This document shows, piece by piece, positions 47,278 to 64,000 of a stretch of 64,000 nucleotides of DNA. The notes below the pieces were generated by a model. It was not told the DNA's origin and made no database searches. It saw nothing but the letters and a program-made list of their open reading frames with translations. The DNA is taken from the NCBI RefSeq assembly GCF_020463795.1, contig NZ_CP080025.1, positions 2,477,501 to 2,541,500 on the forward strand, read 5' to 3'. The position numbers and the translations under genes are program-made. The stretch's first letter is position 1. Every line of letters begins with the position of its first letter. The stretch comes from Echinicola marina. GTDB lineage: Bacteria; Bacteroidota; Bacteroidia; Cytophagales; Cyclobacteriaceae.

Positions 47278-47524
47278 AAGTATATAATCATTCGAAAGGT
47301 AAATTCTAACAGATTTATCTTGGTTTAAACAGTGACCAATAGCTTATTAGGGAACAACCTCGGCACAACAGCACGAGGTATTCATCGGAATAAAGTTAAA
47401 TAATTTTGGAACAAGTCTCTGGGATTAAATTAAAAACTTATTCAAATTCCACCATATGCTTCTTTTAAGTCAATTAATAAAAAAATTGTTTGATATATCA
47501 AGCATGAAAATCGCAATAATTTTA

Positions 47525-48559
47525 TATGTGTATCCGTAAGAGTGCACGTAATAAAATATGACAATACGTGTCATTAAATTTCAAGGTATCAGGATAGTTG
47601 TTTTCTTGCATAAAAACAAGAAAAGCTATGAACCTTATAGAATTTACGGGCCATTTCCCAGATGAGGAAAGTTGTGAACAATACATCAAGAAATACCGTG
47701 AGAAAAGCGGTATACGGTGCAAAAACAGTGAGAAGATAACCCGACACTATTGGTTTGCCAACGGCAGGTTTTTCGAATGCAGCAGTTGTCGGAGACGTTC
47801 TTCTCTTAAATCAGGGACGGTAATGGAAAACAGCAAGCTTCCGCTCCGTATCTGGCTATTGGCCATGCTGTTTATGTCGGCGACCAAGAAAGGGTTTTCC
47901 TGCCTTGAGCTCCAGCGGCAACTGGGGCTTAGCCGATATGAGACCACTTTCCGTCTGATGCACAGGATACGGTCAGCCATGGGACAACGAGATGAGCTTT
48001 ATATCCTCAGTGACATGATTGAATATGACGAGTGTTATATGGAAACCGTACAGGAGAACCAGATCTTGGGTCAGCTTAAACGTGGAAAAGGCAGCCAGAA
48101 ACAGACCGCAGTAGCGGTGGCGGCCGAATCGGTACCCTTGGAAGACCTGGATTCCGGGCAGAAAACAAAGCGCTGTGGCTATTTCAAAATGAGGGTCATG
48201 GACAAAGTGGACTGCGAGAGTGTCAATGCCTTTATCCGGGCCAATACCGTAGGGGATGTGGTACTGTTTACAGACAAGAACACGGCCTACTCGAAAATAG
48301 AGGAAGTGGTGGCCACCCATTTGGCCGTTCCATCGGGAAAGGAGTCCGTAAACGACACCTTAAAATGGGTACACAAAGCAATCAGTAATCTTAAAAGAAC
48401 CCTGTTGGGGGTATATCACATGATAACTTATAAATATTTACAGAACTATTTAAATGAGTTTGTTTACAGATTGAACCGAAGATATTTTGGCAAAGGACTC
48501 TTTGAAAGGCTCGTTATTGCGGGCACTTACCCATACGTGCAGTAAAACGGATACATATA
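47525..48559 (+). mobile_element. IS1595-family insertion sequence, copy 2
   Basis: 1,035 bp, same orientation as copy 1. The right terminal sequence is CGGATACATATA instead of CGGATACACATA (one substitution). TAATTTTA stands immediately left (47517-47524) and again at 48562-48569, 2 bp beyond the right end, so the duplication is shifted or the right boundary altered. Its transposase carries a zinc-ribbon Cys-to-Ser change, suggesting a decaying copy. Confidence 0.92.
47628..48545 (+). CDS. IS1595-family transposase (copy 2, C34S)
   Basis: 305 residues, identical to the copy 3 protein as far as I can see except that the zinc-ribbon CKNC reads CKNS: codon 34 is AGT at 47727-47729 instead of TGT. 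Loss of one of four zinc ligands probably weakens or abolishes DNA binding. The catalytic region is unchanged (YDECYME; FTDKNTAY). Confidence 0.92.
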   Translation: MNLIEFTGHFPDEESCEQYIKKYREKSGIRCKNSEKITRHYWFANGRFFECSSCRRRSSLKSGTVMENSKLPLRIWLLAMLFMSATKKGFSCLELQRQLGLSRYETTFRLMHRIRSAMGQRDELYILSDMIEYDECYMETVQENQILGQLKRGKGSQKQTAVAVAAESVPLEDLDSGQKTKRCGYFKMRVMDKVDCESVNAFIRANTVGDVVLFTDKNTAYSKIEEVVATHLAVPSGKESVNDTLKWVHKAISNLKRTLLGVYHMITYKYLQNYLNEFVYRLNRRYFGKGLFERLVIAGTYPYVQ

Positions 48560-49871: not shown

Positions 49872-50171
49872 TTAATCCCCTTGTGTGAGCAGACATAAAC
49901 TGTCCTCTATGGCTTCTACCTCGTGGATGATTTCCACTGGGATATCTGTTTCTTCATATTGCCGAAGGGAAACTGTTTTATTGTTTTCTGTATAATTGAC
50001 GGCTCCTTCCAAGACGAATAATTTGGAAGGCTTATGGGCCTTATGGGCTTTTAGCACCATGCCTTTTTTAAAGGCAATGGCCAATACCCTGAAGGAAGTG
50101 TTTTGGTGAAGCGCCTGTGCTATGGGGTGGCTGCTAGTTTCTAGTTTCGATTTGATGGATGGGATGATCAT
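49872..50171 (-). CDS. Small cupin-fold protein
   Basis: A 99-residue single-domain cupin. The barrel is visible from FRVLAIAFKKGMVLKAHKAHKPSKLFVLEGAVNYTENNKTVSL to IPVEIIHEVEAIEDSLCLLTQ; the typical metal-binding His pair is only partly present (AHKAHK), so metal binding is unsure. Such proteins occur widely in Bacteroidota without a known function. Leftward, convergent with the hydrolase gene. Confidence 0.8.
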   Translation of the reverse strand: MIIPSIKSKLETSSHPIAQALHQNTSFRVLAIAFKKGMVLKAHKAHKPSKLFVLEGAVNYTENNKTVSLRQYEETDIPVEIIHEVEAIEDSLCLLTQGD

Positions 50172-50363: not shown

Positions 50364-50430
50364 AAACCCTTCTAAAACACCATGCGATTCTTTTAAAAAA
50401 ATGTAACTTTGTGAACAGTAAATAGTTGTT
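50364..50430. repeat. 67-bp direct repeat, left copy
   Basis: Bases 50364-50430 are identical to 55364-55430, a spacing of exactly 5,000 bp. The repeat contains TAACTTTG (50404-50411), a match to the TAnnTTTG promoter element. The sequences diverge on both sides. The rest of 50172-50474, between the cupin gene and IS copy 3, shows no gene. Confidence 0.95.
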
Positions 50431-50474
50431 GTACAACCTTTTTTAATGATATAAATAGATGAAAATAAGTATTT

Positions 50475-51509
50475 TATGTGTATCCGTAAGAGTGCACGTA
50501 ATAAAATATGACAATACGTGTCATTAAATTTCAAGGTATCAGGATAGTTGTTTTCTTGCATAAAAACAAGAAAAGCTATGAACCTTATAGAATTTACGGG
50601 CCATTTCCCAGATGAGGAAAGTTGTGAACAATACATCAAGAAATACCGTGAGAAAAGCGGTATACGGTGCAAAAACTGTGAGAAGATAACCCGACACTAT
50701 TGGTTTGCCAACGGCAGGTTTTTCGAATGCAGCAGTTGTCGGAGACGTTCTTCTCTTAAATCAGGGACGGTAATGGAAAACAGCAAGCTTCCGCTCCGTA
50801 TCTGGCTATTGGCCATGCTGTTTATGTCGGCGACCAAGAAAGGGTTTTCCTGCCTTGAGCTCCAGCGGCAACTGGGGCTTAGCCGATATGAGACCACTTT
50901 CCGTCTGATGCACAGGATACGGTCAGCCATGGGACAACGAGATGAGCTTTATATCCTCAGTGACATGATTGAATATGACGAGTGTTATATGGAAACCGTA
51001 CAGGAGAACCAGATCTTGGGTCAGCTTAAACGTGGAAAAGGCAGCCAGAAACAGACCGCAGTAGCGGTGGCGGCCGAATCGGTACCCTTGGAAGACCTGG
51101 ATTCCGGGCAGAAAACAAAGCGCTGTGGCTATTTCAAAATGAGGGTCATGGACAAAGTGGACTGCGAGAGTGTCAATGCCTTTATCCGGGCCAATACCGT
51201 AGGGGATGTGGTACTGTTTACAGACAAGAACACGGCCTACTCGAAAATAGAGGAAGTGGTGGCCACCCATTTGGCCGTTCCATCGGGAAAGGAGTCCGTA
51301 AACGACACCTTAAAATGGGTACACAAAGCAATCAGTAATCTTAAAAGAACCCTGTTGGGGGTATATCACATGATAACTTATAAATATTTACAGAACTATT
51401 TAAATGAGTTTGTTTACAGATTGAACCGAAGATATTTTGGCAAAGGACTCTTTGAAAGGCTCGTTATTGCGGGCACTTACCCATACGTGCAGTAAAACGG
51501 ATACACATA
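50475..51509 (+). mobile_element. IS1595-family insertion sequence, copy 3
   Basis: 1,035 bp with intact ends (TATGTGTATCCG ... CGGATACACATA) and a perfect 8-bp target duplication AAGTATTT at 50467-50474 and 51510-51517. This fixes the true IS boundaries and shows a simple, probably recent insertion into the left end of the 5-kb island. Same orientation as copies 1 and 2. Confidence 0.95.
50578..51495 (+). CDS. IS1595-family transposase (copy 3, intact)
   Basis: 305 residues with complete zinc ribbon (CKNC, CSSC), the HTH-like LELQRQLGLSRYETTF and the DDE-type domain. It has GKESV as in copy 2, so it looks like the ancestral form among the three. Together with the perfect target duplication it is the best candidate for a functional copy. 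Confidence 0.94.
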   Translation: MNLIEFTGHFPDEESCEQYIKKYREKSGIRCKNCEKITRHYWFANGRFFECSSCRRRSSLKSGTVMENSKLPLRIWLLAMLFMSATKKGFSCLELQRQLGLSRYETTFRLMHRIRSAMGQRDELYILSDMIEYDECYMETVQENQILGQLKRGKGSQKQTAVAVAAESVPLEDLDSGQKTKRCGYFKMRVMDKVDCESVNAFIRANTVGDVVLFTDKNTAYSKIEEVVATHLAVPSGKESVNDTLKWVHKAISNLKRTLLGVYHMITYKYLQNYLNEFVYRLNRRYFGKGLFERLVIAGTYPYVQ

Positions 51510-51609
51510 AAGTATTTTATAGTATTTGGTATTTCAAAAAATATATCAAAAATATTTTTTTAATTAACGTATTTACTTGGTGTATCATCCCTAATGAAGT
51601 GTATCAATT

Positions 51610-51638
51610 TGAAATTAGTATATTAAGCTAACTTTGAT
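51610..51638 (+). promoter_or_regulatory. Promoter of the 368-aa island gene
   Basis: TTTG (51610-51613), 17-nt spacer, TAACTTTG (51631-51638), 21 bp before the ATG at 51659. Good match to the Bacteroidota promoter; the short leader is normal for this group. Confidence 0.65.
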
Positions 51639-51658
51639 GTACATTAAAAAAACATGTT

Positions 51659-52765
51659 ATGTTAACTTTTGTTATTGTCTTTTCAGTGGTGCTAGTCATT
51701 CTTTATTTCATTGTTTCCAATAATTCTAATCAAGCGGTATCAAAAAAGAAAGTGCCAGTAATTAAGGCTGATGAAAATAATAGAAATAGTGAAGAATTGT
51801 ATGATATTAAAGTAGAAGAAAATACTGGGAACAGCTACAAAGTATCTGTGAATTTAAATGAAGAGGAATTTATTAGAAGGGCTGAAAAAGGTACTTTATC
51901 ATTTGATATCAAAAAGACTGATGATATATATGATATTTCTGGTTTTTTTGGTTCTGAAAAATCCTCACCTAATGGTGTTTATCAGATTTGCTTTTCTGAG
52001 GGTTATTTAGAAGATGGAAAAAGAAAGCGGGGGAAATTGGCATTAATAAAAAATAACAAGCTTGTTTATAAGAAAAGTGTCAGTAGACCTAATGATTGTT
52101 TAGTTAGTAATGATGGTATTGTAATTTGCTGTGATTGGATAAATTACGATGGTGATCCATCTGGTAGGTTTATAATTTTTGATTCTGAAGGAAATCAGAT
52201 TTTTACACTTAAGACAAGAGCAAATTTAGGTTTGTGTGCAATTAGTGAGGATTCTCAATATGCTGTTTTTGAGACTCATAATATGGATAATATTCATGGT
52301 GATAAATTGTTTATTATTGATGTCCCTAAAGCTGACGTGATAAAAAAATTAGTACGTCCATGTGGAATTAAAGAGTTAGATATATATTCCGTTTCCAAAG
52401 AAATTTCCATTCTGAACAGTGATGATTATGAAGTGATAATAGATTTTGAAGGTCGCCAGACTAACATTGAGGATTATGAGAATCAAGTGAGAAAAAAGGG
52501 GAATATTAGAGATGTACTATCTTTATACAACGGAATACCACAAAACAAAAAGTTTTCAGACCCTAGATATATTGAACTAATAAACAAAGCTGTAGATAGT
52601 GAAGATAAGATTTATGGATTAGATCAAATTTTTCGAAATCTAGGGGAATTCTATGAGGAAAAAGGTGATATAAAAAAGACCGTTGAAAATTGGGAAATAG
52701 CTATAAAAATCAATCCAAAAGTTGGCGTAAAAAGAAGGTTAACATCATATAAGAAGGGGCATTAA
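51659..52765 (+). CDS. Unrecognised membrane-anchored protein, propeller-like plus TPR-like end
   Basis: 368 residues, not recognised. One N-terminal membrane helix (LTFVIVFSVVLVILYFIV, residues 2-19) points the rest out of or into the cytoplasm. Residues about 90-270 show WD-like beta patterns (GVYQICFSEGY, KLALIKNNKLVYKK, GRFIIFDSEGNQIFTLKT, SQYAVFETHNM). The last ~45 residues read as one TPR-like helix pair (GLDQIFRNLGEFYEEKGDIKKTVENWEIAIKINPK). AT-rich, Lys/Asn/Ile-rich codon use unlike the core genes; own promoter. Accessory gene of unknown role. Confidence 0.7.
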   Translation: MLTFVIVFSVVLVILYFIVSNNSNQAVSKKKVPVIKADENNRNSEELYDIKVEENTGNSYKVSVNLNEEEFIRRAEKGTLSFDIKKTDDIYDISGFFGSEKSSPNGVYQICFSEGYLEDGKRKRGKLALIKNNKLVYKKSVSRPNDCLVSNDGIVICCDWINYDGDPSGRFIIFDSEGNQIFTLKTRANLGLCAISEDSQYAVFETHNMDNIHGDKLFIIDVPKADVIKKLVRPCGIKELDIYSVSKEISILNSDDYEVIIDFEGRQTNIEDYENQVRKKGNIRDVLSLYNGIPQNKKFSDPRYIELINKAVDSEDKIYGLDQIFRNLGEFYEEKGDIKKTVENWEIAIKINPKVGVKRRLTSYKKGH

Positions 52766-52921
52766 TTAGCCTTTTTTTTGTTTAAACAAAACGTTCGTTA
52801 ATTACTGAATTAGGTATTTTTTATTTTTCAAAAAATTGAAAATGCAAAATATATTTTTGTTTGACAGTTGTAGGGTTAGATTTTTTGATATATCTTCAAG
52901 CTATAACTATAAAGATAAATT

Positions 52922-53443
52922 ATGATTTTATTAACCAAAAATGAAAACTGTAGTACGAACAACCATTTCAAATCTATTGTATTTAGTTTAAAGGATGATA
53001 ATGGTTGTTCATATTTCTCAATGCTTTCTTATGTTAGAACTTATAGGGTTGAAGTGACTGAATTTCATGATGAATTGGATGAGAAATTATTAGATTTTAT
53101 CATTTCAATGTTTGGAAATGGGAAAAGAGGATATGGGATTAGTTTGTATTTTAATGAAGTAAATAAAAATCTTTCCAATTTACTTAAAGGACAAAAAAAG
53201 AAGGTGAAATTTAAGTTTTATGAAAGAATTCCCTACGAGGTATTTGATAGTAATAAGTGGGAGGGAAAAATTAATTCTGTTGATGTAAGTTTGGTTTTCT
53301 CAATAAGGTCAAATAAGGATTTAACAAAGTTTTTGATGGATGAATATCTTATTGAGTTAAATGAAAAGGAATGGGATTTATTGAAATTCAATTCTCCTAC
53401 AGTGAATCAATATGAAACTTTGGAATTTGCTGGGGCTAATTAA
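52922..53443 (+). CDS. Unrecognised island protein, 173 aa
   Basis: A 173-residue protein with no signal peptide or membrane helix. It is a mixed alpha/beta protein rich in charged residues (DELDEKLLDFIISMFGNGKRGYGISLYF; KGQKKKVKFKFYERIPYEVF). I recognise no family or catalytic motif. AT-rich codon use like its neighbours. Its stop codon lies in the loop of a terminator hairpin (53432-53455), so it is transcribed separately from the next gene. A 156-bp gap upstream has no clear promoter. Confidence 0.65.
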   Translation: MILLTKNENCSTNNHFKSIVFSLKDDNGCSYFSMLSYVRTYRVEVTEFHDELDEKLLDFIISMFGNGKRGYGISLYFNEVNKNLSNLLKGQKKKVKFKFYERIPYEVFDSNKWEGKINSVDVSLVFSIRSNKDLTKFLMDEYLIELNEKEWDLLKFNSPTVNQYETLEFAGAN

Positions 53444-53455
53444 AGCCCCTTTTTT
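53432..53455 (+). terminator. Terminator overlapping the end of the 173-aa gene
   Basis: GGGGCT (53432-53437), loop AATTAA containing the stop codon, AGCCCC (53444-53449), then TTTTTT. A compact, strong intrinsic terminator built into the 3' end of the gene. Confidence 0.88.
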
Positions 53456-53477
53456 AGTTTAATAATCTTGAAATAGT

Positions 53478-54170
53478 ATGAAGAACCAAAAGCAATTTTT
53501 TATAAAATACTGGTACTTAATTTTAATCGTTTGCGTTGGCTTTGGTGTTTTTATTTGGCTTAACCAACCTTTCAGCCCAGATATTTGGGGTACTGTGTCA
53601 GATTGGGCAATGGTGGTAGTGACAAGCCTAACTGCTATATTTTTGATTTTGACATTTAGGGAGCAGCAGAGAATTACAAGTATTGAGAATTATAAGCATG
53701 TACAAAATATTAAACCTTACTTTGAACTTAAACCTAAGTTGTTAGGTATTAAACAAGAAGGTGAAAATGGAGAATTTAGTGCCGTTGTTACATTTGATTA
53801 TTATGTTAGAAATAGTGATGCTTACGATGTTGAATTTAATATGTCAAGAAAACTTTATCCTAAAGATGTAGGGATAGAATGGCCTACTTACAGTAATAGT
53901 ATATTGCACAAAGACAAAAACGCTACTTTCCCCTTTATGCATTTGTTTTCGGTTGGGGAGAGTAAAATATTTGATATTAAGAATAATACTTTAAAAACTA
54001 AGCATGATTATACTTTGACAGCTGATATTTCATTTTCAGATATTGAAGGTAATAGGTACGGTCAACATATTTCGTATGTCTTGTTAAAGGATGGAAAAGA
54101 AACTATTATTTCAACAGCAACAATTGATAGGGATAAATTACCAAAGGTTAAATTAAAGGAATCTAAGTAA
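53478..54170 (+). CDS. Unrecognised protein with two N-terminal membrane helices
   Basis: A 230-residue protein with helices at about 10-28 (YWYLILIVCVGFGVFIWL) and 41-60 (DWAMVVVTSLTAIFLILTF), then a basic linker and a cytoplasmic or periplasmic beta-rich domain of ~160 residues (YFELKPKLLGIKQEGENGEFSAVVTFDYYVRNSDAYDVEF). This architecture recurs in accessory genes of many bacteria, but I know no function. The 3' end overlaps the opposing HNH remnant by 18 bp. Confidence 0.68.
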   Translation: MKNQKQFFIKYWYLILIVCVGFGVFIWLNQPFSPDIWGTVSDWAMVVVTSLTAIFLILTFREQQRITSIENYKHVQNIKPYFELKPKLLGIKQEGENGEFSAVVTFDYYVRNSDAYDVEFNMSRKLYPKDVGIEWPTYSNSILHKDKNATFPFMHLFSVGESKIFDIKNNTLKTKHDYTLTADISFSDIEGNRYGQHISYVLLKDGKETIISTATIDRDKLPKVKLKESK

Positions 54171-54404
54171 CTCCAACCTCTTAGCACCTTCACAAATAAA
54201 CTTTAACCTACCATCAACAAATTCCCTTAACCACTCATCTTTATCATCAATCCTCGCTTCTAAAGCCATTTTTTGGCTATGGCATTTGCTACATAAATGC
54301 TGATAGTTTACTTCTTCATATTCAAGATTTTCAAACAGTCTTCTTGGGGCAATGTGATCAAGGAAAGCCCCAACGATTGTGATGCCACCACTTTGATATG
54401 CCAT
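54153..54404 (-). pseudogene. N-terminally truncated HNH nuclease remnant
   Basis: 83 residues from ATG 54404 (TTG 54407 also possible). It keeps LDHIAPRRLFEN, YQHLCSKCHSQKM (the D-H, N-equivalent and second CxxC of phage-type HNH nucleases), but the usual N-terminal ~30-40 residues with the first CxxC are missing, and an in-frame stop is found at 54429-54431 upstream. Probably a fragment of an HNH gene as found beside phage terminases, so non-functional. Tail-to-tail overlap with the two-helix protein gene. Confidence 0.65.
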
Positions 54405-54480
54405 CAAATTGAAGAAATAGAAAATGGCTTAAAAGGCCAGCGTTATAAAAGTGAAGGGTTCTTTTTTCTTTGATATTTCA

Positions 54481-54507
54481 TTTGTACGGAAAAAATACGT
54501 ACATTTG
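54481..54507 (+). promoter_or_regulatory. Promoter and operator of the toxin-antitoxin pair
   Basis: TTTG (54481-54484) and TACATTTG (54500-54507) form a promoter with a short 15-nt spacer. A perfect 6-bp inverted repeat TGTACG - 9 nt - CGTACA (54483-54503) lies across both elements. A dimeric ribbon-helix-helix antitoxin bound there would block RNA polymerase, the usual autoregulation of such pairs. Confidence 0.65.
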
Positions 54508-54524
54508 TATAAGCGAAATGAGAA

Positions 54525-54806
54525 ATGAAAGTTATGGAAATTGTAAAAAAATCTCGTTTTGAAATGAGAATTTCAGACGATGATAAATCGTTAATTGAAA
54601 GAGCTAGTAAAATAAAAGGATATTCTTCTTTGGCTGGTTTTGTTTCTGAAGCAGCAAAAAAGGAAGCTAGTCTAATTATTGAAGAGCATGATAGAATATT
54701 GGCATCAGAGTTAGATAAAAAAACTTTCTTTAATGCAATATTGTCAGATTTGGAACCTAATTCTAGATTGAAGGAAGCTATAAAAAGGTATAAAGAAAAA
54801 CAATAA
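54525..54806 (+). CDS. DUF1778 (TacA-like) antitoxin
   Basis: A 93-residue ribbon-helix-helix protein of the DUF1778/TacA family: basic strand SRFEMRISDDDKSLIERASKIKGYSSLAGFVSEAAKKEA, then a C-terminal toxin-binding helix region (EEHDRILASELDKKTFFNAIL), typical of TacA. Known TacA proteins neutralise TacT acetyltransferases and repress their own operon. ATG 54525 is followed by a second ATG at 54534; either fits. The gene ends 3 bp before the toxin gene. Confidence 0.9.
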   Translation: MKVMEIVKKSRFEMRISDDDKSLIERASKIKGYSSLAGFVSEAAKKEASLIIEEHDRILASELDKKTFFNAILSDLEPNSRLKEAIKRYKEKQ

Positions 54807-54809
54807 TTA

Positions 54810-55316
54810 ATGGAAAATTCGGAAGTTGTTCTGTTAGAAAAAAAGCATAAGAGAGCAGAATTTGAATGTGGTAAAGATTTATTAGATAATTATATTAGAA
54901 AGCAAGTAAACCAAGATTTTAAAAGGGGGCTTGCCGTTTGCTTTGTTATTGTTGATGAGGGAAATGTTGTAAAAGGTTATTATACATTATCAAGTTATAG
55001 TATTTTACAAGCGGATATCCCCGAAGAATTTTCTAAAAGACTTCCGAATTCATATACTAACATCCCTGTTACTTTATTGGGCCGACTTGCAGTCGACAAG
55101 AGTCACATAGGTAAAGGTCATGGAGAATTTTTGCTTATTGATGCGTTAAATAGAGCATTAAGTATTTCAAAATCATCCGTGGCATCAATGGCAGTTGTTG
55201 TTGATCCTATAGATGAAGAAGCCGTAAAGTTTTATGAAAAATATGGATTCATTTTTCTTCCTGATTCTGGCAAAATGTTTTTACCTATGTCAACCATTGA
55301 AAAGGCCTTTGTTTGA
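54810..55316 (+). CDS. GNAT (TacT-like) toxin
   Basis: A 168-residue GNAT acetyltransferase. The acetyl-CoA loop is LGRLAVDKSHIGKGHGEFLL (RxxGxG/A-type), and the catalytic Tyr is in AVKFYEKYGFIFLPD. TacT-type toxins acetylate the amino group of aminoacyl-tRNAs and halt translation; paired with the antitoxin directly upstream. The pair is intact by sequence and is the probable maintenance module of the island. Confidence 0.9.
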   Translation: MENSEVVLLEKKHKRAEFECGKDLLDNYIRKQVNQDFKRGLAVCFVIVDEGNVVKGYYTLSSYSILQADIPEEFSKRLPNSYTNIPVTLLGRLAVDKSHIGKGHGEFLLIDALNRALSISKSSVASMAVVVDPIDEEAVKFYEKYGFIFLPDSGKMFLPMSTIEKAFV

Positions 55317-55363
55317 TTTTTTTAAGATAGTTCTGGGTCTGGAAAGAAAGTTTTAAGAATAAG

Positions 55364-55430
55364 AAACCCTTCTAAAACACCATGCGATTCTTTTAAAAAA
55401 ATGTAACTTTGTGAACAGTAAATAGTTGTT
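55364..55430. repeat. 67-bp direct repeat, right copy (SDR promoter region)
   Basis: Identical to 50364-50430. It contains TAACTTTG at 55404-55411, 63 bp before the SDR start, so it probably provides the SDR promoter; the -33 element is weak. Deleting one repeat plus the intervening DNA would join the cupin gene directly to the SDR gene, which is the likely ancestral arrangement. Confidence 0.95.
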
Positions 55431-55474
55431 ATACTAACTATTGAAAAAGCAATCAATTAAAATAAAGTACGAAT

Positions 55475-56179
55475 ATGCCCCAAAGCATTTTAGTGACAGG
55501 AGGAACCAAAGGGATTGGAAGAGAGTTGATTAAGCGGTTTGCCCGAGAAGGATTTGATGTTTTTACCTGTTCAAGACATCAAAATGATCTTGATCAGCTT
55601 CGAGAGGAAATAAAAAATGAATTCCCAAATATTAGTCTGTATACCAAGCAAGCAGATCTTTCCATCAAAGAGGAGGTCTTGTCATTGGCTACAGCGGTAA
55701 GGGAAAAGTTCATTCCGGATGTTCTTATTAATAATACTGGAGTGTTTTTACCTGGGGCCATTCATGATGAACCTGATGGTAATTTTGAATTGATGATGCA
55801 GACCAATTTGTATAGCGCCTATTATCTGGTCAGGGAATTCACTGGAGCTATGATAAAGAGAAAATCAGGGCATATTTTTTCTATGGGGTCTATAGCGGGA
55901 TTGACTGCCTATGCCAATGGCGGAAGTTATGCCATATCTAAATGGGCCATGCTTGGGATGACCAAGTGCCTGCGACAGGAATTACTTCCCCACGGTATTA
56001 AAGTGACCTCTATAATGCCGGGGGCTACACTTACTGCCAGTTGGGAGGGAGTGGATATTCCTGAAGAGAGATTTATGAGAGCCAGTGATGTGGCAGAATC
56101 AGTTTGGTCGGCGTATAACCTTTCGCCCCAATCTGTTGTTGAAGAGATAGTGATCAGGCCTCAACTCGGGGATCTGTAA
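55475..56179 (+). CDS. Short-chain dehydrogenase/reductase
   Basis: A 234-residue classical SDR. NAD(P)-binding TGGTKGIGRELI, conserved INNTGVF (NNAG-like), active-site Ser in FSMGSIAG and YxxxK in SYAISKW. Typical length, cytoplasmic oxidoreductase; substrate unknown. Lies 9 bp before ispG, so the two are probably co-transcribed from the promoter in the 67-bp repeat, making this junction important for ispG expression. Confidence 0.92.
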   Translation: MPQSILVTGGTKGIGRELIKRFAREGFDVFTCSRHQNDLDQLREEIKNEFPNISLYTKQADLSIKEEVLSLATAVREKFIPDVLINNTGVFLPGAIHDEPDGNFELMMQTNLYSAYYLVREFTGAMIKRKSGHIFSMGSIAGLTAYANGGSYAISKWAMLGMTKCLRQELLPHGIKVTSIMPGATLTASWEGVDIPEERFMRASDVAESVWSAYNLSPQSVVEEIVIRPQLGDL

Positions 56180-56188
56180 ATATAGGAA

Positions 56189-58177
56189 ATGATGGAAGTC
56201 AAAGAAACCTTAGCAAATATCAATTATTGTGACAGCCTAACCCAGTATTCTAGAAGGAAGACCATTCCGGTTAAAATCGGTGATGTATGGGTAGGAGGTG
56301 ATAATCCAATTGTGGTGCAGTCCATGACCACCAAAGATACGATGGATACAGAAGGCTCTATAGAGGAGTGTATCCGGATGATAAAAAGTGGCTGTGAGCT
56401 GATTCGTATTACCGCACCAAGCATTAAGGAAGCTGAGAATCTTAAAAATATCAAAGAAGGCTTGGCTAGGCGAGGTTATTATGTACCGTTGGTTGCTGAT
56501 ATTCATTTTACTCCTAATGCCGCGGAGGTAGCCGCAAGGATAGTAGAAAAAGTTCGGATCAATCCAGGTAACTATGCCGACAAAAAGAAATTTGAGGTAA
56601 TTGAGTATACAGATGAGAGTTATCAAGAGGAACTTGACCGTATTCGTGAGCGGTTTTTGCCATTAGTAAGGATTTGTAAGGAGCACGGTACGGCGATGCG
56701 GATAGGTACAAACCATGGGTCACTTTCTGATCGAATCATGAGTAGATATGGGGACACTCCGTTGGGGATGGTAGAATCGGCTTTGGAATTCCTCAGGATT
56801 TGTGAAGAGGAAAAATTCTTTGATATTGTGATTTCCATGAAGTCTTCCAATACGCAGGTAATGGTTCAGGCTTATCGCTTATTGGTTCAGAAGCTTGATG
56901 AAGGAGGTTTTAAACCTTATCCACTTCATTTAGGTGTCACGGAGGCTGGAGATGGAGAAGATGGTAGGGTTAAATCCGCTGTTGGGATTGGGACTCTATT
57001 GGAAGATGGTTTAGGAGATACTGTGAGGGTTTCCTTGACTGAAGATCCCGAATTCGAAGCACCAGTAGCCAGGGCATTGATAGATAGATATGCCAAACGA
57101 ACAGGGCATGGAGCTATAAGGGACATCGATAAATACCCGATCGATCCATTTGAATACAAAAAGAGAAACAGTTTTGAGGTGTATAATTTTGGAGGTCAGA
57201 ATGTACCAAGGGTGATTACGGATATTTCCAAGGTGGATGGTATCACCCAAAAGGAAATGAAAAAACTGGGGCATTTTTATTTGCCTGAATTGGACAAATG
57301 GAAGATGAATGACCTTGGATGCGACTTTGTGTATTCTGGTAAGCAGCCGATTTCATTTATGTTGCCCAATGGGCTAAAAGAAATTGTAGATTGGTCTGTT
57401 TGGAAAGAACTTGGTGATCATGAAAATAAGTTTCCTGCTTTTTCTATTGCCGAATTTATTGAAGCTTCAGCCTACCATCAGGAGCTGAATTTCCTGAGGT
57501 TAAAAGATATTGAAGTAGAGAAAGCCATTATAGCCTTGGCAGGAAGAAAGGATGTAGTGGTCATCCTCCATAGTGACAATAAGCACAATATGCCGGCGCT
57601 AAGAAGGGCTTATATTGCCCTGATCAATGCTGGAGTGGCTCTGCCAGTGGTGACTGAGGTGGACTATAAAGAACAGGATGCTGACCAAACCATGCTTTAC
57701 GCAGCCACTGACGTTGGCGGTTTGCTAATAGATGGATTAGGAGATGGAGTGATGCTTGGATTGGGAGAGAAGAAATTGGAAGATCGTAAAGATTTGTTGG
57801 ATACAATCAAGCTTCATAATTCAGTTAGTTTCGGCGTCCTCCAAGCAGCTAGGACCAGGATGTCCAAGACAGAATATATTTCCTGTCCTTCCTGTGGTAG
57901 GACCCTTTTTGATCTACAGGAAACCACAGCCATGATCAGAAAACGTACAGATCATCTAAAAGGAGTTAAAATAGGTATTATGGGCTGTATTGTAAATGGT
58001 CCTGGGGAGATGGCAGATGCAGATTACGGTTATGTGGGGTCAGGAAAAGGTAAAATAACCCTTTATAAGGGCAAGGAAGTGGTGAAGCGTTCTGTTCCAT
58101 CAGAAAATGCTGTTGATGAATTGATCAATATAATTAGAGAAGATGGCCAATGGATAGAACCGGAAGCTGTAGATTGA
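56189..58177 (+). CDS. ispG: 4-hydroxy-3-methylbut-2-enyl diphosphate synthase, long form
   Basis: A 662-residue GcpE/IspG, the reductive [4Fe-4S] enzyme that turns MEcPP into HMBPP in the MEP isoprenoid pathway. The N-terminal TIM barrel begins RKTIPVKIGDVWVGGDNPIVVQSMTT. The insert of ~250 residues between barrel and cluster domain marks the long form of Bacteroidota, Chlamydiae and plants. The C-terminal cluster ligands are in SCPSCGRTLFDLQ (Cys about 567 and 570) and GIMGCIVNGPGEMADADYG. The standard bacterial form is about 370 residues, so the length is class-typical, not a fusion. Confidence 0.96.
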   Translation: MMEVKETLANINYCDSLTQYSRRKTIPVKIGDVWVGGDNPIVVQSMTTKDTMDTEGSIEECIRMIKSGCELIRITAPSIKEAENLKNIKEGLARRGYYVPLVADIHFTPNAAEVAARIVEKVRINPGNYADKKKFEVIEYTDESYQEELDRIRERFLPLVRICKEHGTAMRIGTNHGSLSDRIMSRYGDTPLGMVESALEFLRICEEEKFFDIVISMKSSNTQVMVQAYRLLVQKLDEGGFKPYPLHLGVTEAGDGEDGRVKSAVGIGTLLEDGLGDTVRVSLTEDPEFEAPVARALIDRYAKRTGHGAIRDIDKYPIDPFEYKKRNSFEVYNFGGQNVPRVITDISKVDGITQKEMKKLGHFYLPELDKWKMNDLGCDFVYSGKQPISFMLPNGLKEIVDWSVWKELGDHENKFPAFSIAEFIEASAYHQELNFLRLKDIEVEKAIIALAGRKDVVVILHSDNKHNMPALRRAYIALINAGVALPVVTEVDYKEQDADQTMLYAATDVGGLLIDGLGDGVMLGLGEKKLEDRKDLLDTIKLHNSVSFGVLQAARTRMSKTEYISCPSCGRTLFDLQETTAMIRKRTDHLKGVKIGIMGCIVNGPGEMADADYGYVGSGKGKITLYKGKEVVKRSVPSENAVDELINIIREDGQWIEPEAVD

Positions 58178-59819: not shown

Positions 59820-60338
59820 TCAATGTTGGTGACCGTGTTCTCCATGTACATGTCCATGTGCCAGTTCTTCAGGAGAAGCATCTCTTACTTCCAATACTTC
59901 GCCATCAAAATGTAGTTTGAAGTCCACTAATGGATGGTTAAAATCCAATAATAAATCCTCTCCAAGGTCTTTAAGTACCTTTGCCTGCATAGGATAGCCT
60001 TCTTCATCTACAAGTGGCAGAAAGTTGCCTTCTTGGAGCATTTCCGGCTTAAAGCCTCTTTCTTCTGTTAATTGGGCTTTGGCAATATCAACGATTAATT
60101 CGTCATCAGCTTCACCATAAGCTTCATTTACTTCAAGAACAAAATTAAAGTGATCCCCCTCATTTTTGTCTACAAGGTATGATTCAAATTTTTCCGGTAA
60201 ACCACTATTTCCAAATATGAAATAGAAAGGGTCTTCTTGGTCCCTCACCTCTACGCTGAAAGGAGCTGACTCCTCATCTGCTTTGCTTACTTTTAATTCG
60301 TACGTTAGCCCTACTACTTTATTGTTGGATATTTCCAT
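59820..60338 (-). CDS. slyD: FKBP-type peptidyl-prolyl isomerase, SlyD-like
   Basis: A 172-residue SlyD-type protein: FKBP half-domains (VVGLTYELKVSKADEESAPF; ...VDFKLHFDGEVLEVRDASPEELAHG) with an IF insert domain between them. The C-terminal His-rich tail (HGHVHGEHGHQH) matches the metal-binding tail of SlyD, which chaperones proteins and handles nickel. Cytoplasmic. Single leftward gene. Confidence 0.92.
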   Translation of the reverse strand: MEISNNKVVGLTYELKVSKADEESAPFSVEVRDQEDPFYFIFGNSGLPEKFESYLVDKNEGDHFNFVLEVNEAYGEADDELIVDIAKAQLTEERGFKPEMLQEGNFLPLVDEEGYPMQAKVLKDLGEDLLLDFNHPLVDFKLHFDGEVLEVRDASPEELAHGHVHGEHGHQH

Positions 60339-60538
60339 GTGTTATGTTTTGCTTTTAAAACAAAGATATAAATTTGGGCGATTCTTCCTCATAAAAAGCA
60401 AAATATGTGGTTTTTTGTTGTTTTTGAAGGGTATAAACGTCTCTTTAGCAGTGGCTTGTTGTTGGCGCCGAGGAGTGAAAAAAATAAAGGTCAGCCTTCA
60501 AAAGAAGAGTGACCTTTATTGTATGATTATTAATGTAC

Positions 60539-63313
60539 TTAGACCACGATATTGACGATTTTTCCAGGTACCACGATGACTTTTTTCGGTGTTTTTCCGT
60601 CTAGCCATTTAGTAACATTAGTATCCGATAGTGCCGCTTTTTCAATTTCTTCTTTGCTTAAGCTCAAGGAAAGAGGAAGCTTTGCTCTCATCTTACCGTT
60701 GATAGAAACCGGGTACTCATGGGCATTTTCAGTCAAATACTCTTCATTGTATTTAGGGAAGCTGGCTTCCACAACTGAGGTTTCATGACCTAAGAGTGAC
60801 CATAATTCTTCAGCAATATGAGGGGCAAAGGGTGAAAGGATTACCGCCAATGGCTCCAGTATTTCACGCTTATTGCATTTCATTGCACTAAGCTCGTTCA
60901 CACAGATCATAAAACCTGATACAGAAGTGTTGAAGGAATAATTGTTCATATCCTCTTCTACCTTCTTGATGGTTTTGTGAAGGGCTTTCAGTTCATCCTT
61001 TTTCGGAGCGGCATCAGAAACAGCGAAATTACCATTCTTATCATGGAATAGTCTCCATACCTTTTTTAAGAACTTGGATACGCCATCGATACCATTGGTG
61101 TTCCAAGGCTTAAATTGCTCTAATGGCCCCAAGAACATTTCATATAGTCGCAAAGTATCCGCGCCATAGCGCTCTATGATATCATCTGGATTGACCACAT
61201 TGTACTTGGACTTGGACATTTTTTCCACTTCAGCACCGCAAACATATTTGCCATCTTCAAGGATGAACTCAGCATCGGCAAGATCTGGTCTCCAAGCCTT
61301 AAATTTATCAAGGTCCAAATGGTCGTTGTACACAATGTTTACATCCACGTGCATGGCAGCAGTATCATAGTCTTTTCTCAGTCCATGACTGACAAATTTA
61401 TTGGTGCCTTTTACCCTGTAGACAAAATTCGAGCGACCTTGGATCATGCCTTGGTTGATCATCTTTTTGAAAGGCTCCACTATATTGATCAATCCTCGGT
61501 CATAAAGGAACTTGGTCCAGAAACGACTATAAAGCAAATGTCCTGTTGCATGTTCAGCACCACCGATGTATAGGTCAACAGCTTCCCAGTAGTTTTGGGC
61601 GTCTTTGCTTACAAATTCATCATTGTTTTTGGAATCCATATACCTAAGGAAATACCAGGATGAACCTGCCCAGCCAGGCATGGTGCTTAATTCAAGCGGA
61701 TATTCTCCATCTTTGGTTTTATAGGTCCAATCTTTTGCTCTGCCAAGTGGAGGGGCCCCATCCTCAGTAGGTAGGTATTTGTCTACTTCAGGAAGTACAA
61801 TTGGGAGGTCTTTTTCCTCTACCAAATAAGGAATATCATCTTTGAAGTAAACAGGAAGTGGCTCTCCCCAGTAACGCTGCCTGGTGAAGATGGCATCCCG
61901 CATACGGTATTGGATTTTGCCTTTACCGATTTTTTTCTCTTCAAGGAATTCAATGGCTTTGTCCATGGCTTCCCTCATCGGTAATCCATTGATGATATCA
62001 GAGTTCATCGCCGTAGCACCCCATCCATCATAAGGAATTTCTTCAGCACTACCTTCCAGTACCTGGCGAATCTCCATTCCAAAGTGCTTTGCAAATCTGT
62101 AATCTCTGTCGTCATGGGCAGGAACGGCCATCACAGCCCCAGTTCCATATCCGGCCAAAACATAATCTGCTACCCAAACAGGGATCTCTTCACCATTGAA
62201 AGGATTAATGGCATAACTGCCCGTGAAAGCACCAGAGATGGTTTTGACATCACTCATTCGGTCTCTTTCAGAACGGTTTTTGGCTACTTCAATATATGCT
62301 TCTGCTTCCGCTCTTTGGTCTTCAGTGATCAGTTCAGCTGCCAATTCACTTTCAGGAGCCAAAGCAAGGTAAGTTACACCGTAAATGGTGTCTATTCTTG
62401 TGGTAAACACCTTGATTTTTTTGTCGGAGTCCTTAACTTGGAAAACCATTTCAGCGCCAGTGGAGCGTCCTATCCAGTTACGTTGCATTTCCTTGATAGG
62501 CTCGTGCCAATCTACTTTTTCAAGGTCATTAAGAAGACGCTCGGCATAGGCTGTTATACGCATACTCCATTGCATCATCTTCTTTCTTTCCACAGGGTGT
62601 CCTCCTCTTTCAGAGAAGCCATCTTTCACTTCATCATTTGAAAGTACGGTTCCCAAGGCTGCACACCAGTTTACAGTGGTTTCAGCCAAGTAGGTTAATC
62701 TATATTGTAATAATATTTCCTGCTGTTGCTTTTCTGAATAACTGTTCCAGTCCTCAGCAGTAAAGATTTCGGTATCCTCATCACTCACCACATTGATCTT
62801 GGCATTTCCTTCTGCTTCAAAAGTTTTGATCAGCTCAGCGATGTCCTTGGCCTTGTCAGCATCTTTATCATAATAACTGTTGAACAGTTGCATGAAAATC
62901 CACTGTGTCCATTTATAGTAATTAGGGTCTGAAGTTCTGACTTCTTTGTCCCAGTCAAAAGCAAAACCGATGTTTTTAAGCTGCTCGGTGTATCTTTTTA
63001 TATTCTCCTCTGTGGTAATGGCTGGGTGTTGACCAGTTTGGATGGCATATTGCTCAGCAGGCAATCCAAAGGAATCATAGCCCATTGGGTGTAGAACATT
63101 ATAACCTTGTAGTCTTTTGAACCTGGTGACGATATCTGAGGCGATATAGCCCAGTGGGTGTCCTACATGCAATCCTGCTCCAGAAGGGTAAGGAAACATG
63201 TCCAAACTGTAAAATTTAGGTTTTTGAGGGTCAACTTTGGCATTGAAGATTTGGGAAGCTTCCCATTTGTCCTGCCACTTTTTTTCTATTTCTTGAAAAT
63301 TATATTCAGCCAT
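60539..63313 (-). CDS. leuS: Leucyl-tRNA synthetase
   Basis: 924 residues from ATG 63313 (an in-frame TTG at 63322 is less likely). Class I synthetase with HIGH-type motif HVGHPLGY (residues 49-56), the CP1 editing domain with [21 protein letters not shown] and [16 protein letters not shown], and KMSKSKYN near residue 700. The anticodon-binding and C-terminal domains are complete. Attaches leucine to tRNA-Leu. The 200 bp between slyD and leuS hold nothing I recognise. Confidence 0.97.
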
Positions 63314-63483
63314 TTTTAGCAAAATTGTTACTTAGAATAGGATTGCTTGCAAAATTAAAAAAAATAAATGGGATATGCCTTTGTATTTGTCCAGTAAGTC
63401 AGGTTAAGTTCCAAGTTTGAGGTGTGAAATACGAAGCGTGCGAAGAAGAAATGAGAAGGGAGTTTCAAGTCTCATTCTAACTG

Positions 63484-64000
63484 CTACCAGAATCTCCAGC
63501 CACGATGTCTGGTCCGCCCTCTTCTAAGCCAGTTTTCCCAGATGTCTCGTGAGAAATAGATTTCTACTCCAATATTGAGGGTAAAATACCCGTCATAGCG
63601 GTGGGTAAGACCACTGCCTCTCCTGATACGGTGCTGGAAATTCCCGTATTTATCAACGTATGTTCCATTCCTTATCTTTTCTACATCGGGCATGCCATTA
63701 TCATCCAACCAGTCAGGGTTTCTTACAGCCAATCTTAATCTTTCCGGCATAGGTCCCTCACCAAAGTCACCATAGCTTTCCAGTAGATCCAAATAAAAGT
63801 CCTTGATATTAAAAGCACTTATGTCATCCATATAGTCCGTTAAGGTAAAGCGATAGTTGCCTTCCAAAAAAAGGTCGGTATAGACATTGAGTTTGTATTT
63901 CATTCCCAATCCCATGGGGAAAACCATCACTACTCCAGGGTATTCCTTGCCTTCTAGGGCCAAAGGTCGCAAACTGACCCATTCGCCATCCAGTTGAGCT
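63484..64000 (-). CDS. DUF6089-like outer-membrane beta-barrel protein, 3' part
   Basis: The reading frame stays open to the window edge, so the 5' end is missing; about 172 residues are visible. The pattern of a small Bacteroidota barrel is clear: VVMVFPMGLGMKYKLNVYTDLFLEGNYRFTLTDYMDDIS, and the last strand YFTLNIGVEIYF followed by a basic tail (WLRRGRTRHRGWRFW). It resembles the C-terminal half of DUF6089 proteins (PorG relatives), often coded near NAD kinase and BamA. The assignment is by memory of pattern, so moderate. Confidence 0.65.
   Translation of the reverse strand, partial: AQLDGEWVSLRPLALEGKEYPGVVMVFPMGLGMKYKLNVYTDLFLEGNYRFTLTDYMDDISAFNIKDFYLDLLESYGDFGEGPMPERLRLAVRNPDWLDDNGMPDVEKIRNGTYVDKYGNFQHRIRRGSGLTHRYDGYFTLNIGVEIYFSRDIWENWLRRGRTRHRGWRFW

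Follow-up and report, generated by a model that had tools for sequence, protein, structure and literature searches.

A gene island between two copies of the SDR-ispG promoter in Echinicola marina as a probable remnant of a phage-type element

Investigating a window of 64,000 nucleotides from Echinicola marina (genome G000; NCBI RefSeq assembly GCF_020463795.1, contig NZ_CP080025.1, positions 2,477,501 to 2,541,500), we examined a 5-kb island, which separates a cupin gene from an operon formed by an SDR gene and a second gene that we take to be ispG (a name carried over from the first-pass annotation of this DNA). IspG belongs to the methylerythritol phosphate (MEP) pathway. The island is enclosed by a direct 67-bp repeat (R67), and as judged from the sequence R67 is the native SDR-ispG promoter in duplicate. 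In one relative (G001) the site is empty, in another (Echinicola shivajiensis, G009) two copies enclose cargo that differs in part, and two of the island genes, an HNH endonuclease fragment and orfC, show phage kinship. We consider it somewhat probable that the two repeats are attL and attR of a phage-type element now decayed, and that the island is what survives of a temperate phage end, to which a TacAT toxin-antitoxin pair and an insertion sequence (IS) were added.

The duplicated promoter

The two copies of R67 (50364-50430 and 55364-55430) agree in 67 of 67 positions. Elsewhere in the window none of six tested 20-mers of the repeat recurs; a search of the 5.69-Mb genome at E<=1e-4 returned the two copies only, and widening it to E<=10 added nothing but weak partial matches. 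A chance origin of the identity is excluded on sequence grounds, and a dispersed repeat is ruled out by the presence of only two copies in the genome. The flanks diverge on both sides, but they do so gradually: on the left, homology between the copies runs on for about 15 bp, including a 3-base indel, and on the right the next four bases read GTAC in one copy and ATAC in the other, real divergence beginning only after them. The round figure of 5,000 bp between the copies seems accidental; 1,043 bp of it come from the IS with its duplication. Positions ~21-67 of R67 alone are common to the single native promoter of G008, while positions 1-20 are common to G001 and the right copy of E. shivajiensis; the native SDR-ispG promoter is the 3' portion of R67. 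The right copy has the native promoter form seen before the SDR gene in relatives. The first-pass annotation had described a perfect repeat, flanks that diverge on both sides, and an insertion that preserved the promoter of the SDR and ispG genes; all of this holds, with the reservation that the divergence is less abrupt than described. Direct repeats at both ends of the island, together with a single copy in the empty site, form the arrangement typical of an att element.

The SDR-side promoter was read in 18 genomes (the 11 genus members, G000 among them; G011, G030, G031 and G036; G133, G136 and G350), and TAACTTTG with ATAGTTGTYATACTAACTATT, or a close variant, was found upstream of the SDR gene in every one of them. 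Promoter and imperfect palindrome (ATAGTTGTYATACTAACTATT and variants) follow each other at 55403-55442 of the window and at the SDR loci L013-L025 and L058-L061, which represent several genera; the palindrome upstream of SDR-ispG may be an operator or a hairpin of the 5' leader. Of 390 family genomes, 86 carry a combined promoter-palindrome pattern, 84 of them once and only G000 and G009 twice; the reversed control gave 8 matches in 7 genomes (counted from the table). Adjacency to an SDR gene was verified for 15 of the 86, and the sensitivity of the pattern is incomplete, as it missed G002, G003 and G007, in which the promoter is present, and 304 genomes overall. One R67-type copy is found in 9 of the 11 genus members. 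The short motif RWTAATAGYGATTYY alone is uninformative (0 to 2 matches per genus genome versus 0 to 3 for its reversed control), and TTGTTGTAC, the form seen in the left copy, was rejected as a marker of the left end, since the ordinary single SDR promoter of G004, G350, G136 and G133 has it as well.

Empty and filled sites in related genomes

In G001 the order of genes is GHL (a gene with a weak GHL10 match only), cupin, one R67, SDR and ispG, with nothing inserted. A tree of GHL, SDR and ispG, drawn from 10 of the 11 genus members (G004 left out; G002 and G006 without GHL), groups this genome with G000 and places G009 outside both. In E. shivajiensis, where the cupin gene likewise stands on the left, it is followed by a TacT remnant, a gene of 136 aa, a SatD-family gene, a partial R67 and the leader, and then by a cargo gene (306 aa from TTG, 294 aa from ATG), an orfC homologue, an HNH remnant, R67 and SDR. 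Both kinds of relative that the first-pass annotation had anticipated, one with an empty site and one with other cargo between the repeats, were therefore found. Such empty and filled relatives show that these units come or go cleanly at the SDR promoter site.

The islands of E. marina and E. shivajiensis share the left junction (50398-50477, part of R67 included; 85% identity), the leader (51510-51587; 87%), the start of orfC (86% over 174 bp) and the HNH fragment (77% at the DNA level over 239 bp), which is cut at about the same point in both; their first cargo genes differ. Host genes show 81.5 to 87% identity between the species, and the identities of shared blocks and host genes, taken alone, cannot tell old vertical descent from later exchange. 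When the leader piece was compared with 59 genomes, G009 gave the sole strong match besides the sequence itself, weak AT-rich matches being seen in others; relatives of the G009 cargo gene were found in 3 of 341 genomes of the order, a sample that does not list G009. GHL and SDR are separated by stretches of differing length in the remaining genus members that were compared, with different genes in them (read by eye).

The age of the duplication can be approached from the repeat itself. Against R67 of G001, the G000 repeat has about 7 differing aligned positions (89.7% of 68), and against the right copy of G009 about 5 (92.5% of 67), so that a duplication as old as the species splits would leave zero differences between the two G000 copies with a probability of only about exp(-5) to exp(-7). 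Because identity would otherwise be so improbable, we infer that the two copies are younger than the species splits or have been homogenised. Upstream of the shared core, several context types exist within the genus. At about 40-50 bp upstream of ACTTTG, the left copy of G009 resembles G003, G004 and G006 (scores of 51-61, the maximum in 40 shuffles being 27-28), and the sequence ahead of its right copy is of the G000/G001 type. With TGACTTTG where G000 has TAACTTTG, the left promoter copy of G009 looks as if it were no longer maintained. A third stretch in G009, with what is probably a truncated SDR-promoter context, lies at about 10110-10160 of L013 (-), directly beside the TacT remnant. It scores 47 and 43 against the contexts of G007 and G008, with 0 of 2000 shuffles as good, counts that are flattering given that the stretch was picked after a 13-base match had been spotted in it; to the context of G010 it shows no match beyond shuffles (2 of 2000 as good). 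G009 probably keeps a third SDR-promoter context here, and for this reason the site has probably been used repeatedly for insertion in this genome, a conclusion which is supported but weaker than the preceding ones. A SatD-family helix-turn-helix gene (the family was tested in G009 only) and a small membrane-protein-like gene also recur ahead of the SDR promoter: they are seen in G009 and G010, and in G003 in what looks like a broken form (L013 9030-10053 and segments of L018 and L020). Three related genomes offer the site in a cleanly empty state, in a filled state and with signs of several insertions, so that promoter-targeted exchange of islands becomes directly testable.

Phage kinship of the island

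The HNH fragment matches PHROG HNH families, and HNH matches were obtained in 8 of 148 family genomes. Six of these regions were examined, a weak match in G069 being left out. Five of them (L051-L054 and L056) contain a full-length HNH open reading frame (ORF) of 108-132 aa, compared with which the HNH of the window lacks an N-terminal part. Family searches identified phage genes beside the full-length HNH in three: an integrase and a virion protein in L051, a tail protein in L052 and an integrase in L053; in L054 and L056 the phage setting was judged from the gene neighbourhood alone. On contig C9 of G009, the sixth region, three neighbours form a row: an integrase, a further gene and the HNH match. 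The last lies in an open frame of 117 aa, where no ATG-initiated ORF of 60 aa is listed. As a side observation, the tail protein of the prophage in L052 (10032-14060, -) contains a gene-transfer-agent TIM-barrel domain (PF13547, E 4.5e-120).

Relatives of orfC are found in 3 of the 148 genomes, namely G000 itself, G009 and G098. In the last of these (L051, contig C14), which belongs to another genus, the order at a temperate phage is the 3' end of what is presumably a tmRNA gene, a tyrosine integrase, two genes, the orfC homologue, a convergent full HNH gene, two genes and further genes including that of a virion protein. The island resembles this phage in the convergence of orfC with HNH and in the accessory genes beside them; it differs in that the G098 phage keeps its integrase and virion-protein gene at the tmRNA-like site, whereas here the accessory end only is present, and at the SDR promoter. 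Besides G009, G098 is the one case among the 148 genomes in which the gene order is shared with a recognisable prophage. Searches of virus and plasmid collections yielded little: none of 11 stretches was confirmed for orfC in IMG/VR, HNH and orfC had no match in the phage collection, and the whole island matched 8 plasmid records, always inside the IS.

Origin of the island

In the explanation that we favour, the attachment site would be the promoter or 5' leader of the SDR-ispG operon. Integration would leave one attachment copy on each side, and the element's copy, together with its own upstream arm, would become the operon's new promoter. Integrase and phage body would have been lost later, while the leader, the accessory genes, orfC and the truncated HNH gene stayed, and the TacAT pair and the IS would be later additions. 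An integrase presumably made the original duplication, and present exchange between strains would proceed via homologous recombination across R67. The different upstream contexts of the left and right copies in G009 would be expected from incoming DNA that carries an upstream arm of its own, and this mosaic is compatible with both the integrase and the homologous-recombination routes. We call the island a remnant rather than a prophage because neither an integrase nor structural genes were found in it.

Several observations weigh against a phage-type origin. The islands of both G000 and G009 are devoid of an integrase gene, and the cargo comes straight after the leader, at the place where one would perhaps look for an integrase. 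The G098 prophage occupies another site, and a homology of 67-82 bp exceeds what an integrase needs. Among the 390 family genomes the site is duplicated in G000 and G009 only, and diverged copies would escape the motif. The left-junction sequence is absent from IMG/VR (18-base exact search, 0 matches), a 31-base junction pattern matched E. shivajiensis only in genome_contigs, and R67 with the leader found nothing in phages and, in plasmids, a single weak match of 79% over 48 bp (E 0.08).

The first-pass annotation had ascribed the insertion to an unusual element. The inserted island, the kept promoter, the empty site, the partly different cargo and the non-dispersed repeat all stand, but the epithet finds no support as worded: contents and order correspond to the integrase-accessory-HNH end of a temperate phage, and targeting of a gene's 5' side with provision of a new promoter is known from dusA islands. 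According to the published description (PMC4482086), dusA islands and prophages insert at the 5' side of the gene, where island sequence replaces the old 5' sequence and a promoter is retained; they share with the present island the position 5' of a conserved gene, putative promoters before and after it, and flanking direct repeats, which are imperfect there. In contrast, an integrase family of their own and semiconserved 21-bp sites within dusA are described for them; the present island has no integrase gene and its repeat falls entirely within the promoter and leader of another gene, so that it is not of the dusA type. A toxin-antitoxin pair within a composite island is also reported for the HipAB composite genomic island (PMC8978831), with another toxin-antitoxin family, another integration site and a claim of stabilisation by the pair. 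Islands replacing the 5' end of a gene are already known. The present one marks a variable locus of Echinicola where accessory genes of phage origin would turn over beside ispG, leaving the operon's promoter unbroken, and the conserved promoter-palindrome offers a handle for finding the responsible recombinase.

The strongest competitor, possible though clearly the less likely account, needs no site-specific step: foreign DNA linked to the SDR promoter of a relative would have entered by ordinary homologous recombination from a circle or linear DNA of another strain, with the 67-bp promoter as the homology and the repeats as a by-product of Campbell-type or allelic exchange. In its favour, the identity of R67 is long and fades with an indel, showing no core end, the copies agree within a genome (CAG/CAG in G000, CGG/CGG in G009) and differ between species, and the right copy of G009 has an upstream arm of the G000/G001 type. 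However, it leaves the first joining of foreign DNA to the promoter unexplained, and the inner boundary of the left copy, which is the same in two species, as well as the phage-end gene order speak against it. A related proposal, which we regard as doubtful, has cargo dock repeatedly at the SDR-ispG promoter with its palindrome, Echinicola species exchanging integrase-less cassettes there through promoter recombination; if so, each swap would renew the promoter arm of a presumably essential operon and give the cargo a second promoter copy.

It seems unlikely that the island is a cassette which lacks an integrase and is still mobile, one of the genome's own tyrosine recombinases acting in trans on R67 and TacAT stabilising the insertion. 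G000 does have 15 Phage_integrase-family matches elsewhere, the TacA and TacT frames are full-length, and copies that agree in 67/67 positions point to an insertion or exchange of recent date; yet no recombinase is linked to the site, and neither R67 nor the leader has a strong second match elsewhere in the genome. An IS or composite transposon as the maker of the structure is contradicted, despite the IS1595-family IS inside the island, by a repeat too long for a short target duplication, by terminal inverted repeats that belong to the inner IS, by the 8-bp duplication which this IS has of its own in the leader, and by the same leader being uninterrupted in G009. Equally improbable is an assembly artefact, which the spacing of exactly 5,000 bp might suggest: the flanks differ on both sides, and the separate genome G009 has two copies and related content, a second case on which the artefact is rejected. 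The GC skew in 4-kb bins, a weak test of a terminus or dif element, is positive in the first 15 bins (1 to 60 kb) and changes sign in the last alone (60001-64000), where it is negative.

Contents of the island

The features of the locus are collected in Table 1.

Table 1 Features of the island and its borders (positions in the window)
Feature	Position	Strand	Remarks
Cupin gene, left neighbour	49872..50171	-	Pfam MannoseP_isomer and Cupin_7, both below cut-off
Left R67 copy (attL-like)	50364..50430	+	SDR-type promoter (TAACTTTG) directed into the island; 67/67 identity with right copy
Left leader of the element	50431..51587	+	conserved, interrupted by IS
IS1595-family IS	50475..51509	+	later insertion; DDE_Tnp_IS1595 match; ends read from sequence
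orfA	51659..52765	+	368 aa; N-terminal helix, strand-rich middle, helical C-terminus; TPR_1 below cut-off
orfB	52922..53443	+	173 aa; no family assigned
orfC	53478..54170	+	230 aa; N-terminal part common to G009 island and G098 prophage protein
Phage-type HNH endonuclease gene	54156..54407	-	5'-truncated; convergent with orfC; PF01844 and PHROG HNH families
TacA-like antitoxin	54525..54806	+	PF08681, E 2.5e-18
TacT-like GNAT toxin	54810..55316	+	Acetyltransf_7, E 6.2e-8
Right R67 copy (attR-like)	55364..55430	+	promoter of SDR-ispG
Imperfect palindrome AATAGTTGTTATACTAACTATT	55421..55442	+	island junction inside; variants 5' of SDR gene in 18/18 genomes inspected
SDR gene	55475..56179	+	native locus; PF00106, E 1.6e-44
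ispG (presumed)	56189..58177	+	native locus; 3' of SDR gene in relatives compared

Family searches agree with what had first been read from the sequence, namely an IS1595-family transposase, three unmatched ORFs, an HNH remnant and a TacA/GNAT pair in AT-rich DNA (29.9% GC without the IS, 39.1% for the window), with no integrase, all 15 Phage_integrase-family matches of the genome lying outside the island. Phage structural or packaging genes were not found in the island, the truncated phage-type HNH gene standing alone, and among 10 proteins PADLOC gave no convincing match to a defence system, only weak ones to PtuB/HNH, PDC and HTH. None of the products of orfA, orfB and orfC has a family match above cut-off (for orfB, 0 families in Pfam, PADLOC, PHROGs and NCBIfam). 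That of orfA shows a weak PHROG match to a membrane protein (E 0.002), has no relatives besides itself among the 341 order genomes, and yields a single-sequence structure model of low confidence (pLDDT 54). The TacA-type antitoxin directly adjoins the GNAT toxin, an arrangement that identifies the two as a putative TacAT pair, and a search of IMG/VR with TacT returned three relatives of 35%.

The IS is flanked by the 8-bp duplication AAGTATTT (50467-50474 and 51510-51517), and subtracting it together with one of the duplications leaves 3,957 bp, in agreement with the initial count. A second, near-identical IS1595-family copy is situated at 47522-48545, at a distance of 2,950 bp from the copy in the island, with the GHL-cupin segment between the two.

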